This document shows positions 59,291 through 64,000 of a stretch of DNA of 64,000 nucleotides, one piece after another. The notes under the pieces were generated by a model that worked only from the letters and a program-made list of their open reading frames with translations, did no database searches and was not told where the DNA came from. The translations under genes were made by a program, and so were the position numbers. Origin of the DNA: Verrucomicrobiota bacterium (GTDB lineage: Bacteria; Verrucomicrobiota; Kiritimatiellia; SS1-B-03-39; UBA6053). The DNA is taken from positions 1 to 64,000 of the forward strand of contig JAFIGC010000003.1 of assembly GCA_020831635.1 (NCBI GenBank), written 5' to 3'. Every line of letters starts with the position of its first letter. The first letter of the stretch is position 1.

Positions 59291-59295
59291 AAAAA

Positions 59296-59326
59296 TGGTG
59301 GCGATGGAGGGATTTGAACCCTCCGC
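59296..59326 (-). other. 3'-terminal tRNA fragment: attachment site of the integrated element
   Basis: On the minus strand this is a TpsiC arm GAGGG-TTCAAAT-CCCTC followed by acceptor 3' strand CATCGCC, A73 and CCA. No 5' half (GGCGATG) or D and anticodon arms are found in the next 100 bases. The 3' portion of a tRNA next to an integrase gene is the usual mark of a site-specific integration junction. By this geometry the intact tRNA should lie at the far end of the element, beyond the window. The amino acid cannot be named. Confidence 0.75.
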
Positions 59327-59406
59327 AAATCATTATTTTCCTAAGTAAAAAAGATATTTGAAAATAAGTATTGACGAAAGTTGACGTTTTGCGGCATACT
59401 GTGGCC

Positions 59407-60633
59407 ATGAAACGACAAGACAAGACAAAGGGGAACGTAATCGAATACAAGGGCGGAAAAATCCGCATTCGCCCCAATGGAAGCTTTGCCGCCGATCTTC
59501 ATGTGGGGGGAGGAAAGCGGCGGCGCAAACAGTGTGACAACCTGGACGCGGCCAAGGCGTTCATCGACAAGGAACAGGCCGCGCGTGATAACCATGGGCT
59601 ACTGGCCGTGGCATTGACCCCCAGGCAACTGCAAGAATGTGCGGACGCGATTCACCTATTGCAAGACGGCGGGCTTGACGTTTCGCTTGTGACGGTTGCA
59701 AGTGAGTACCTCAGACGGAATCGACCGAATCAGATAAACTTGACCGTGGGGGAAGCATTCGAGCGGTACATGGACCATGTGAAACGCCGGGGCGGGAAGA
59801 AGAACCGCCCGGCCCGTCAACACACGCTTGACTCGAAACGGAAACGCCTTGGATCTTTTATCGAACTCTACGGGGAAACCAATTTGCGAGACATCACCGA
59901 ATCCGACGTACAGAACTGGATGGAATCGCTTGGGGAGGTACAGGAGCGGACAAGGTTCAATCGGAAATCCGAACTGCAATCCTTTCTGAATGGCTGTCAG
60001 AAGTTTTTGGACATCGATTATGTGAATGATGTTTGCCGCGTGGAACAGCCCGGAGAGAACGAACAGCCCGCCGCAATCATCACGCCGCAACATGCCGCCG
60101 GTATGATGAAGTGGCTGGAGGAAAATAAGGAGCCCAAATTCATTGCGGCCATGGCGTTAATGTTCTTCGGGGGAATCCGCCCCATGGAGATCCTCAGACA
60201 CGACAACCCTTTGACGTGGGAGACCATCGACTTTGAGAAGGGGGAAATCTATGTTCCCGCCCCGACATCCAAAACCCGCACACACCGCACCATTGAGATA
60301 CAGAACAATCTCAAAGCGTGGTTGAAACGCTACCGAGGGGAAGGCCGCATAGGTCCGGTGGAAAGCTCTTTCCGCGCCGCCCGAACAAGTGCCTATCGCT
60401 CAGCCGGGCTGGATTCATGGCCCATGGACGCGGCCCGACATTCCTTTGCGACCTATGCGGGAATCATCTACGGATCACACAAGGCCGCTTCATGGATGGG
60501 GCACGGCGGAACCCTTTATGTGTTTGACCAGCATTACAAGGGGCTGGGTACTCGCAAGGACGCTGAGGCATTTTTCAAGATCACGCCCGCCCGCGCCGCC
60601 GGAAATCTTATCCGCATGGAGGCCACCGCGTGA
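59407..60633 (+). CDS. int: Tyrosine recombinase/phage integrase
   Basis: A 408-residue tyrosine recombinase. Catalytic residues visible are R258 (GGIRPMEIL), R344-H345 (DAARHSFATY), H366 (MGHGG) and probable Y377 (DQHYKG). The residue normally His before the second Arg (HxxR) is Asp here (D341), a known variant in some phage integrases. An N-terminal core-binding domain and an arm-type domain (KIRIRPNGSFAADLHVGG) precede it. The start is ATG 59407. It begins about 80 bases from the tRNA fragment and integrates the element. Confidence 0.9.
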   Translation: MKRQDKTKGNVIEYKGGKIRIRPNGSFAADLHVGGGKRRRKQCDNLDAAKAFIDKEQAARDNHGLLAVALTPRQLQECADAIHLLQDGGLDVSLVTVASEYLRRNRPNQINLTVGEAFERYMDHVKRRGGKKNRPARQHTLDSKRKRLGSFIELYGETNLRDITESDVQNWMESLGEVQERTRFNRKSELQSFLNGCQKFLDIDYVNDVCRVEQPGENEQPAAIITPQHAAGMMKWLEENKEPKFIAAMALMFFGGIRPMEILRHDNPLTWETIDFEKGEIYVPAPTSKTRTHRTIEIQNNLKAWLKRYRGEGRIGPVESSFRAARTSAYRSAGLDSWPMDAARHSFATYAGIIYGSHKAASWMGHGGTLYVFDQHYKGLGTRKDAEAFFKITPARAAGNLIRMEATA

Positions 60634-61190
60634 CCAACAAACAAAAAAGAGCGCTTGCCGAAAAAACCTTGCAGGATAACGATGATTTATCGGATCGGTT
60701 TCTTGCCAATTTAACCGGCCTCAGTGCAGGCTTGTTTAAAAGTGTGAGGGCGGCGAAAGCTTCATCGGATGGATACCACTCTACGTATCGAAAAGGGATG
60801 GACGGAAAAACCTACTCCGTCCCAGTTCCCCCGGCGGATCCGAATGTTCAAACAGATGCTTGCGGAATACCTATCCCGGAGCACGCCATGACGATTTTCA
60901 AGCGGCGGGGTGAGATTGCTGACATGCTGGCGAAGATTGAGGCAATCAGAAACAAGATCGAAATCGCGGACTCGCTGAACGATCCGCTATTCAAACAATG
61001 CAGGACGGAGGGCCTACTTTTGGACATTTCCAAAGTTTACAGGCATATCAGAATCGCCTTACCCGAGCATGTTTGCCCTTGGTGCGGTGGAAAAGGGTGT
61101 TCCGACTGCCGGACCACGGGCATGGTAAGCCCGTATGTGTGGGGGATGGCCCCTGAGCAACTGAAAAAGGATCTTCTGAAAAGGGCGTGA
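60630..61190 (+). CDS. Element-encoded protein with CxxC-zinc motif (186 aa)
   Basis: It starts with GTG, overlapping the integrase stop (GTGA). The N-terminal half is charged and the C-terminal part has CPWCGGKGCSDC, a DnaJ-like CxxCxGxGCxxC zinc motif. Earlier text (KIEAIRNKIEIADSLND) is helical. Not identified; similar mixed proteins occur on phages and integrated plasmids. Confidence 0.55.
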   Translation: MTNKQKRALAEKTLQDNDDLSDRFLANLTGLSAGLFKSVRAAKASSDGYHSTYRKGMDGKTYSVPVPPADPNVQTDACGIPIPEHAMTIFKRRGEIADMLAKIEAIRNKIEIADSLNDPLFKQCRTEGLLLDISKVYRHIRIALPEHVCPWCGGKGCSDCRTTGMVSPYVWGMAPEQLKKDLLKRA

Positions 61191-61716: not shown

Positions 61717-61896
61717 ATGATTGATACCCCCAACGTATACAAAGTCAAGCGGAACCGATTCCGTTTAGAGAATTCCCCCCGCGTGATGGACGGTGCCGAA
61801 GCTTCCGCCCGGTTGCAATTCGATCACAGCATGACGGCCAAACGGGCCCGCCAAATCCTACGCAACGCCCCGGATTGGGTGGAGGCGAAGCCATGA
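61717..61896 (+). CDS. Small basic protein of the element (59 aa)
   Basis: A 59-residue frame just below the usual length limit: MIDTPNVYKVKRNRFRLENS, then ARLQFDHSMTAKRARQILRN. GGAAGG precedes it, and its stop overlaps the next start as ATGA. That coupling plus the ribosome site supports it. No family is recognised; basic and probably helical at the C-terminus. Confidence 0.5.
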   Translation: MIDTPNVYKVKRNRFRLENSPRVMDGAEASARLQFDHSMTAKRARQILRNAPDWVEAKP

Positions 61897-63176
61897 CGGA
61901 AGCTGTCCAATTGACCGGAGCTCAAGTCATATTGAACGACGCAGAGGCACGCTACGCGGTGAGGGCGGCTCGGAAATCCCACGGATTACCCCCCGACCCG
62001 TCTACCGTCGAGAGCGTGAAGGATGAATTCACCGAGGATGAAATCAGGAAGATGCAACACGCAATGGACGGTTGCACGCGGGAAAACGCTATCGAACGTC
62101 TGCGAGAGAAACAGGCGAAAAAACCAAAGCTTCACTTTTGCCACGCGCTGGACCTCATAGCGGACCGCACCCCGGTTGATTGGCTTGTGAAGAATTACCT
62201 CCCCCGCCGGGGGCTGGCATATATCTATGGCCCGTCTGGAGGCGGCAAGACCTTCGCCGCCGTGGATATGTCCGCCGCAATCGCCAAGGGTTGCAACTGG
62301 AGGGATTGCCGCGTCAAACAAAGCCCTGTTGCGATCCTTGCGGGTGAGGGCAACGCGGGATTGAAGCAACGCCTTGCGGCATGGGTGCAAACCTTCGGAC
62401 CCGTCGAACAATTCCCGATCTTCGTTTCCAATACCGGGGGCATGATTGACACCTTCGAGGGGCTGGGAGAAGTTGAAGCCGCCCTTGACCAAATCACCCG
62501 GCCCGGACTTGTCATAGTGGACACTCAATCCCGATGGCAGAGCGGGGATGAATCTTCCACGAGGGACGCGGCGGCATTTGTCCGCAATCTGGACGCAATC
62601 CGGGACAAGTACAACTGTCTTGTCGTTGTCGTTCACCACACCACCAAGGCGGACTTTTCCACGCTTCGGGGGAGCGGTGCATATTTGGGAGCGGCTGACG
62701 CGGTTTTCCTTGCCACCCCCAGCGAAATCGGAGGCGTGAAGCGGATCACTCTATCTTGTCAGAAGATGAAAGAGGCCGTCGAACCGCCGCCCCTGCAATG
62801 GGAATTCGATAGCGTCATTCTGGAGGGCTGGCAGACTGAGGACGGGGAAGAGGTAACGTCCGCAATCCTTCGACCCTGCGACCTCACAAAGGACACCCAA
62901 GGCCGCCCGGCAAAAGACATCCCCCCGGAAATCGCCGTCGAGGTTGTCAGGGAGTACCCAGGAGCATCACAGAATGAGCTTGCGGACCTTTTGGCGGAGC
63001 GGGCAACCGACTTTCTAAAGCGCAAGGTTGGCAAAGACACCGCCCGCCGTTTGCTTGTGAAGCTGGCCACCATCGAACCCGCCCGGCTGATTCGCATTGA
63101 GGACGGGAAACGCATCACTTACCGCCTCACTGCGCTGGAAGCATCGCAAAAAGCCAAGCCGGGGGAGTTGATATGA
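61893..63176 (+). CDS. RepA-like AAA ATPase/helicase (AAA_25)
   Basis: A 427-residue AAA_25/RepA-type ATPase: Walker A GPSGGGKT (residues 113-120), Walker B LVIVDTQSR and the helicase phrase VVVHHTTKADFSTLRGSGAYLG. The fold resembles hexameric RepA helicases of RSF1010-type plasmids and phage helicases. The C-terminal third looks like a winged helix. It lies between the 59-residue gene (ATGA overlap) and the repeat ORF (ATGA overlap), so translation is coupled. Confidence 0.82.
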   Translation: MTEAVQLTGAQVILNDAEARYAVRAARKSHGLPPDPSTVESVKDEFTEDEIRKMQHAMDGCTRENAIERLREKQAKKPKLHFCHALDLIADRTPVDWLVKNYLPRRGLAYIYGPSGGGKTFAAVDMSAAIAKGCNWRDCRVKQSPVAILAGEGNAGLKQRLAAWVQTFGPVEQFPIFVSNTGGMIDTFEGLGEVEAALDQITRPGLVIVDTQSRWQSGDESSTRDAAAFVRNLDAIRDKYNCLVVVVHHTTKADFSTLRGSGAYLGAADAVFLATPSEIGGVKRITLSCQKMKEAVEPPPLQWEFDSVILEGWQTEDGEEVTSAILRPCDLTKDTQGRPAKDIPPEIAVEVVREYPGASQNELADLLAERATDFLKRKVGKDTARRLLVKLATIEPARLIRIEDGKRITYRLTALEASQKAKPGELI

Positions 63177-63463
63177 ATTTAACCTTTTCAAGTGAATTAG
63201 CTTTGCAAAACCCTTTTGCAAAATACCCCCATCTGCAAAGGACTTTTGCAAAGGTCAAAAGCTTTGCAAAACCCTTTTGCAAAGGTGAGTGTGAAAACAG
63301 CGACAAAAGACAATATTTGCAAGGGTTTGCGCTTTGGCAAAACCCTTTTGCAAAACCTTTTGCTAAACTCTCGAAACCCTTATTTTTTGCACTTTGGCAA
63401 AACTCCCCCCCTGTCTATAAGACAGGGGTTTTGCAAAGGTGCAAAAGGGCGGGGGCTGTATGA
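63173..63463 (+). CDS. Repeat-encoded ORF spanning the TTTGCAAA array (96 aa)
   Basis: The frame is open for 96 codons and encodes repeats such as NPFAK, TFAK and LWQN, because the DNA underneath is a TTTGCAAA-type repeat. Its ATG overlaps the helicase stop (ATGA), and its TGA overlaps the next ATG (ATGA). Those couplings suggest translation, but the frame could be open simply because the repeat lacks stops. Function unknown. Confidence 0.45.
   Translation: MNLTFSSELALQNPFAKYPHLQRTFAKVKSFAKPFCKGECENSDKRQYLQGFALWQNPFAKPFAKLSKPLFFALWQNSPPVYKTGVLQRCKRAGAV
63201..63440. repeat. Iteron-like TTTGCAAA array with hairpin
   Basis: Exact TTTGCAAA occurs at 63202, 63215, 63245, 63263, 63276, 63347 and 63430, with at least five one-mismatch copies between. 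Several are paired as CTTTGCAAAACCCTTTTGC. A 9-bp hairpin CCCCTGTCT-ATA-AGACAGGGG lies at 63408-63428. Repeats of this density right after a RepA-like helicase gene resemble replication iterons, but no DnaA box or AT-rich melting region was confirmed. Confidence 0.65.
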
Positions 63464-64000
63464 GTGCGGAATCTCAATACCATGACGCGCTGAGCAGATG
63501 GCCCGGAGCCGGGAGCGGCGTACACAGCCACCTCATGCGGATTGCCAACCTTGCCGCGCTCGCGAACGTCCCCCCCAACGAGGCGGAAGCGGCAATCATC
63601 GCCACCATGCCCCGCGCCCCATCGCCTTCGTCTGAGATCACCGACGCGCTACGCAAGGCCTACGCGGAAGCGGGATGCGGGGATCCAACCATGGCCACCC
63701 TCACCCCCGAACAAAAGCGGCGGCTGAGGGAGCGGAGGGAGGCTGAGCGCGAAGCCCAGGAGAAGCAAGGGCGGAAGATGGCCGTCGAGGCGGTGCGCAA
63801 GCTGGCCGGCGGCAAGATGTCGTTGTCAGAGCTGGCCGCCCTTTCACCCGTGGACGTGGGGGAGGCCACCGACGCGGCACGGCAACGGCGCAATGCCGGG
63901 TTGATGCTTGAGACTCTCCACGGCCCGGACGCGCTTGTCTATGCAGGGAACGCCGGAGGAGGCCGGGAAAGCATGGCCGCCGTAGAGGATTGGCAACGCC
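63460..64000 (+). CDS. Unfinished gene of the element (cut by window end)
   Basis: The ATG at 63460 overlaps the repeat ORF stop (ATGA), and the frame remains open to the window end (180 codons). It begins MSAESQYHDALSRWPGAG and includes NVPPNEAEAAIIATM and a Lys/Arg/Glu-rich helical stretch at about residues 85-110. It could be a primase-like or other replication-linked protein by position, but no motif shows this. Confidence 0.55.
   Translation, partial: MSAESQYHDALSRWPGAGSGVHSHLMRIANLAALANVPPNEAEAAIIATMPRAPSPSSEITDALRKAYAEAGCGDPTMATLTPEQKRRLRERREAEREAQEKQGRKMAVEAVRKLAGGKMSLSELAALSPVDVGEATDAARQRRNAGLMLETLHGPDALVYAGNAGGGRESMAAVEDWQR

Follow-up and report, generated by a model that had tools for sequence, protein, structure and literature searches.

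A candidate iteron-type replication origin directly 3' of a RepA-like helicase gene in a small PICI-like satellite

An array of short palindromic repeats that includes a perfect hairpin lies between a RepA-like helicase gene and a primase gene in the window (the whole 64-kb stretch of DNA that was analysed). This array is probably the replication origin of a small integrated PICI-like satellite, with a probability of about 0.78. The best reading of the layout is an origin of the PICI/P4-crr type, which would be driven by the RepA-type helicase and in which the hairpin may act as a priming site. The first-pass annotation had proposed an origin that is also coding sequence. The origin and iteron part of that proposal gains from the arrays of relatives, the hairpin and the co-variation of the helicase C-terminus in one clade, whereas the coding part is weak.

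The element and its repeat array

The element is 7.7 kb in length and is bounded by exact 30-bp direct repeats (AAAATGGTGGCGATGGAGGGATTTGAACCC), the contig extending to 97 kb, past the window end. It is a small, integrated, virus-satellite-like element of PICI-like type, with the gene order integrase, 186-aa gene, AlpA/Xis-like HTH, 59-aa ORF, AAA_25 helicase, array, primase and small ORFs. Its features are as follows.

59292–59321, no strand: attL, 30-bp direct repeat AAAATGGTGGCGATGGAGGGATTTGAACCC, left element end (exact 30-bp match)
59371–60633, + strand: tyrosine integrase (phrog_1 integrase, 1.1e-24; Phage_integrase); true start perhaps the ATG at 59407
60630–61190, + strand: putative 186-aa gene that shares 4 nt with the integrase gene and occupies the place that 'iolg' has in PICMIs (PMC10803314)
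61436–61657, + strand: HTH_17 protein, AlpA/excisionase-like (HTH_17, 2.7e-6; phrog_66 excisionase and transcriptional regulator, 8e-4; moderate scores)
61717–61896, + strand: 59-aa ORF sharing 4 nt with the start of the helicase gene
61893–63176, + strand: RepA-like SF4 helicase (AAA_25, E = 8.3e-38), proposed initiator
62889–63173: helicase C-terminal domain, proposed iteron reader, as the matching region co-varies with the repeat unit in one clade of relatives
63173–63463, + strand: open frame of 96 codons that spans the array and probably encodes no protein (no family match; no codon-position bias)
63199–63446, no strand: iteron array and proposed origin, with seven exact copies of TTTGCAAA and five that have one mismatch
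63408–63428, no strand: perfect hairpin CCCCTGTCTATAAGACAGGGG (9-bp stem, 3-nt loop, CT..AG-centred), proposed priming (ssi-like) site
63460–64000, on to C138:64770, + strand: primase gene (phrog_2597 DNA primase, 7.7e-16)
C138:67007–67036: right copy of AAAATGGTGGCGATGGAGGGATTTGAACCC, overlapping the tRNA-Met gene at C138:67011–67087

A 16-bp repeat, TTGACGAAAGTTGACG, is found near both element ends (59371–59386 and C138:66865–66880) and provides candidate integrase arm sites; because its left copy sits there, the TTG start of the integrase is doubtful. The 'iolg' gene of PICMIs is essential for excision. The AAA_25 match agrees with the RepA-like helicase that had been placed before the array, and the sole sequence match of this protein among solved structures is RSF1010 RepA (1g8y, E = 9.4e-4, residues 91–262). 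Direct search of the genome contigs and IMG/VR found no close relatives of it. The primase resembles RepB_primase (PF16793) only weakly, below the cut-off (E = 0.024), and has no PDB match. One of the small ORFs has a weak terminase-small match (phrog_2538, E = 0.0086), which is the sole hint of a terS or helper-interference gene in the element.

The array starts approximately 23–26 bp past the helicase stop codon and is not inside the helicase gene. It is built from units of about 8 bp, TTTGCAAA being a short palindrome, with seven exact copies at 63202, 63215, 63245, 63263, 63276, 63347 and 63430, the last of which ends at 63437. Five one-mismatch sites (63232, 63316, 63334, 63359 and 63394), two of them contained in TTTGGCAAA, occupy the gaps between the exact copies. 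The array is real and not a product of chance: the other ~63.7 kb of the window hold two exact copies, and 20,000 shuffles of the array region gave at most two per shuffle against the seven observed. The copy numbers (seven exact, about five near) and the 9-bp perfect hairpin reported in the first-pass annotation were both recovered. The span given there, 63173–63485, does contain the array, but its right limit is too far out, the array proper covering approximately 63199–63446. Two sets of repeats, 63202–63283 and 63316–63366, are separated by a 32-bp gap, and the best 30-bp AT content is only 70%. PICI origins are defined by an AT-rich stretch flanked by iterons on both sides, and this is not clear in the window array. 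An exact search of IMG/VR with the 21-mer repeat unit gave no match, and patterns of TTTGCAAA pairs matched scattered AT-rich sites across 388 genomes of the phylum, with no helicase-linked array recognized beyond that of the window. Matches in an Rfam search were far under the gathering scores.

As stated in the first-pass annotation, the 96-codon frame shares an ATGA with the helicase stop (63173–63176) and another with the following gene's start (63460–63463). It is nevertheless probably not a gene, since the repeats lie in all frames, there is no codon bias and no such ORF is found at comparable junctions. The seven exact copies of TTTGCAAA are spread over frames 0, 1 and 2, and GC at codon positions 1, 2 and 3 is 0.43, 0.42 and 0.39, compared with a GC3 of 0.58–0.77 in the neighbouring genes. 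Profile searches gave no family match for the product, and the helicase–primase junctions at L066, in the same genome, and at L069 are gaps without such an ORF. These findings leave the earlier view of the array as coding sequence weak. They also make it very unlikely that the frame is a translated, ATGA-coupled gene for a repetitive FAKPF protein, the DNA repeats then being a protein repeat, even with the overlap at each end and a Shine–Dalgarno-like GGGGGAG 5 nt upstream of the ATG. When the spacers were shuffled with the repeats kept, frame 0 was open in only 6% of cases, which would favour a gene, but some plus-strand frame was open in 19%. The frame would thus be mostly a by-product of a repeat that has no stop codon in any frame. 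Long frames also lie on other arrays, for example at L107, L112, L076 and 16 of 75 held-out loci (see below), as would be expected of stop-poor repeats. Hypothetical proteins are annotated on such arrays at L102:5028–5156 and L109:5125–5289 and are probably gene-caller artefacts; caution is warranted, as other such annotations may likewise be artefacts of repeats.

Arrays and hairpins in related elements

Relatives were compared in two sets. The survey set comprised 40 helicase-relative loci (5–20 kb) from genomes of the same phylum, phages, cf-PICIs and plasmids, and the held-out set 75 IMG/VR viral loci that were fetched afterwards and belong to one clade, so are mutually non-independent. 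A further 15 IMG/VR loci from the L065 query had no AAA_25 match under the filter used and were left out of the analysis. In 18 of the 40 survey loci the 7-mer cluster at the helicase 3' end is stronger than any other in the locus, where a few percent would be expected by position, and this zone is within the top 5% of the locus for 7-mer clustering in 22. Of the 75 held-out loci, 46 have the array as their strongest cluster. Comparison with other AAA_25 elements, suggested as a check in the first-pass annotation, therefore reveals arrays that are often in the same place, with units of their own and a recurrent hairpin. Absence of the repeats at that place, which had been named as evidence against the proposal, was not found in the literal sense, different units being present there, but a clear array is lacking there in about half of the survey loci.

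The repeat units differ by element (CGGTACA, TGAACCA, TGGGACA, ACTGGAA, GCGGAGA, TGCGGAA, CGTGACA and others), and within families the unit changes in concert across copies. In L107 and L121–L124, with 60–71% protein identity, it shifts from TGCGGAAG to TACGGAAG or CACGGAAG, and does so in almost every copy within an element; two E. coli cf-PICIs have AAAAGTGAG as their unit, and a third has AAAAGTGGG in its copies. The arrays 3' of the helicase in L107, L121, L123 and L124 have in common not only the iterons but also a spacer conserved around AAACCCGCAGAAATCC, where a second protein may bind. The arrays of the enterobacterial AAA_25 cf-PICIs L115, L206, L207 and L106 share CCTGTATA(C)A between iterons, which replaces the CT..AG hairpin. 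One cf-PICI backbone in E. coli carries in the same rep slot either an AAA_25 helicase (L115, L206 and L207) or a P4-alpha-like primase (L205), the latter with nine copies of the P4-type unit GGTGAACAG on its 3' side; this appears to be a modular swap of the initiator together with its own iterons.

Many of the relatives' arrays are accompanied by a hairpin centred on CTTTAG, CTATAG or CTATAAG. In the first set 13 such hairpins were counted in 17 kb near the helicase 3' end and five in 419 kb elsewhere, with a pattern chosen after a partial view of the data. Because of this, the pattern was re-run unchanged on the 75 held-out loci, 65 of which have a hairpin no more than 430 bp past the helicase 3' end (65 in 32 kb near the helicase against four in 524 kb elsewhere, a 266-fold enrichment). 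Altogether 78 CT..AG-centred hairpins have 30 different outer stems and nine centres. The same genome holds a second helicase–primase pair on contig C63 (L066, G000:C63, 4022–6599), whose non-coding junction contains the hairpin CTCCCCCCTTTAGGGGGGAG and GGGCGTGA-type repeats. No papers on such a hairpin with the AAA_25 helicase family were found in a literature search that took in few of the subscription journals.

Repeated 6-mers shared between the 75 held-out loci were compared with helicase identity, corrected for the rest of the protein. Identity in the C-terminal ~90 residues correlates with a shared repeat unit (partial r 0.64–0.69), compared with a partial r of at most 0.16 for helicase windows that do not reach this region and a permutation maximum of 0.09. 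The control region further downstream gave r of at most 0.21 and the array spacers 0.41; neighbour linkage therefore contributes, although the repeated units exceed the spacers. As C-terminal identity tracks the repeat unit, the C-terminal domain is likely to be the iteron-recognition domain in this clade and probably reads the repeats there. The clade consists of TOPRIM-fused helicases, unlike the helicase of the window, for which iteron reading by the C-terminus would be an extension from the tested clade. The C-terminal 95 residues of the window helicase are predicted, at low confidence, to form three helices and a β hairpin (HHH-ββ). A Foldseek search with this weak model gave no significant match, and an AF2 model of the full-length protein was poor, with a pLDDT of 39.

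Proposed origin function

In the proposed mechanism, excision of the element would precede binding of the helicase C-terminal domain to the TTTGCAAA iterons. A helicase ring would then assemble and the neighbouring DNA would be opened. The hairpin thus exposed could serve as a primase entry or priming site, similar to the ssi hairpins for RSF1010 RepB', and the primase from the next gene would start synthesis for extension by host enzymes. The ssi-like role of the window hairpin is tentative, at a little under even odds. Element-specific repeats with a CT..AG hairpin directly 3' of RepA-like helicase genes recur in the sequences of unrelated elements, and for other initiators in this kind of element there is experimental support for an origin on the 3' side of the rep gene, on account of the PICI ori, P4 crr and the L205 swap. 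GC skew in four phages gives no clear signal: three related phages have minima at 1–2.5 kb from the array, close to divergent genes, and a fourth has no such minimum.

Two other explanations leave the array or its hairpin without a part in initiation. The hairpin might be an intrinsic (bidirectional) transcription terminator that ends transcription of the helicase gene, rather than a structure used in replication; TTTTGC directly follows it, and T-runs accompany the hairpins at L065 and L079. This is nonetheless unlikely, as none of the 78 CT..AG-centred hairpins is followed by five T in 8 nt, a terminator scan did not flag that of the window, and a constant centre with varying stems is not expected of terminators. 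Less probable still is an operator or regulatory site at which the helicase or an HTH protein would regulate the replication operon, or a plasmid-like partition, with no role in initiation. The palindromic TTTGCAAA does resemble many operators, rep genes are often also regulated through iteron binding and the array is flanked by two replication genes of the same operon, but it is behind rather than before the operon and has no promoter excess. Moreover, in the clade that was tested the unit varies together with the C-terminus of the helicase itself, and the corresponding site works as an origin region in PICIs (PMC6092414) and is needed in cis for P4 replication.

A wider proposal can also be made, which is speculative and on balance doubtful. 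The RepA-type (AAA_25) modules of phages, satellites and phage-plasmids might share one origin design, with an exchangeable iteron 'word', an exchangeable C-terminal reader and a CTTTAG/CTATAG-centred hairpin of free stem sequence. This hairpin would be a shared primase entry site and a new ssi class for TOPRIM and archaeo-eukaryotic-type primases. The practical outcome is a simple rule for finding origins in uncharacterized phages, satellites and phage-plasmids, namely to look directly 3' of the RepA-like helicase; in addition, a candidate origin-reading protein domain is suggested and the recurrent hairpin has a testable role.

Comparison with known systems

The window array begins after the helicase stop codon, in contrast to lambda-type origins with iterons inside the initiator gene. 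In pRN1, too, a required structure is found directly past the 3' end of the replication gene (PMC4234260), but it is a ~100-nt stem-loop with no iterons and the helicase is of SF3. PICMI minimalist satellites are alike in their small size, an integrase with a 4-nt-overlapping gene, alpA and a primase; they differ in that the window att site is in a tRNA-Met gene and not near fis, a RepA-like helicase is present, and no array is described for PICMIs in the passages of PMC10803314 that were covered.

In the IncQ plasmid RSF1010 (RepA, RepB', RepC, iterons, ssiA/ssiB), RepA opens the DNA, and RepB' recognizes the ssi hairpins and primes (PMC4434180, PMC4234260). The window similarly has a RepA-related helicase, a separate primase gene, iterons and a hairpin whose recognition by primase is proposed only. 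However, its iterons are the ~8-bp palindromic units rather than the RSF1010 type, there is one hairpin instead of ssiA and ssiB, and the primase is only weakly like RepB'. No match to a RepC-like initiator was found among the element ORFs scanned.

The crr of P4 is cis-required according to the record annotation, carries type 1 iterons (GGTGAACA, five copies) and begins just 3' of the alpha gene. It shares with the window short iterons in both orientations directly 3' of the replication gene, which in P4 encodes a primase-helicase. P4 differs in having a second origin locus, ori, at a distance from that gene, its own unit (GGTGAACAG) and a different replication protein, alpha, which binds the origin through a winged-helix domain (PMC4234260).

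A close parallel in layout is the Pri-Rep-ori of PICIs and SaPIs (e.g. EcCICFT073), with int, xis/alpA, replication genes and, directly 3', iterons of an element-specific unit; deletion of this ori lowered replication (PMC6092414). The window has the 30-bp att repeats and integrase, an xis/alpA-like gene before the replication module and iterons directly 3' of rep, from which the origin role is inferred. It departs from PICIs in its AAA_25 RepA-type SF4 initiator, in a primase encoded separately after the array, in the CT..AG hairpin, in having no clear AT-rich stretch between two sets of iterons and in a size of only 7.7 kb. The new replication module seen in the first-pass annotation is therefore not wholly new, since PICIs and P4 crr also have iterons directly 3' of a replication gene. 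The layout is known, the initiator type and the recurrent hairpin differ, and what would be new, if confirmed, is a general rule for RepA-type helicase modules.
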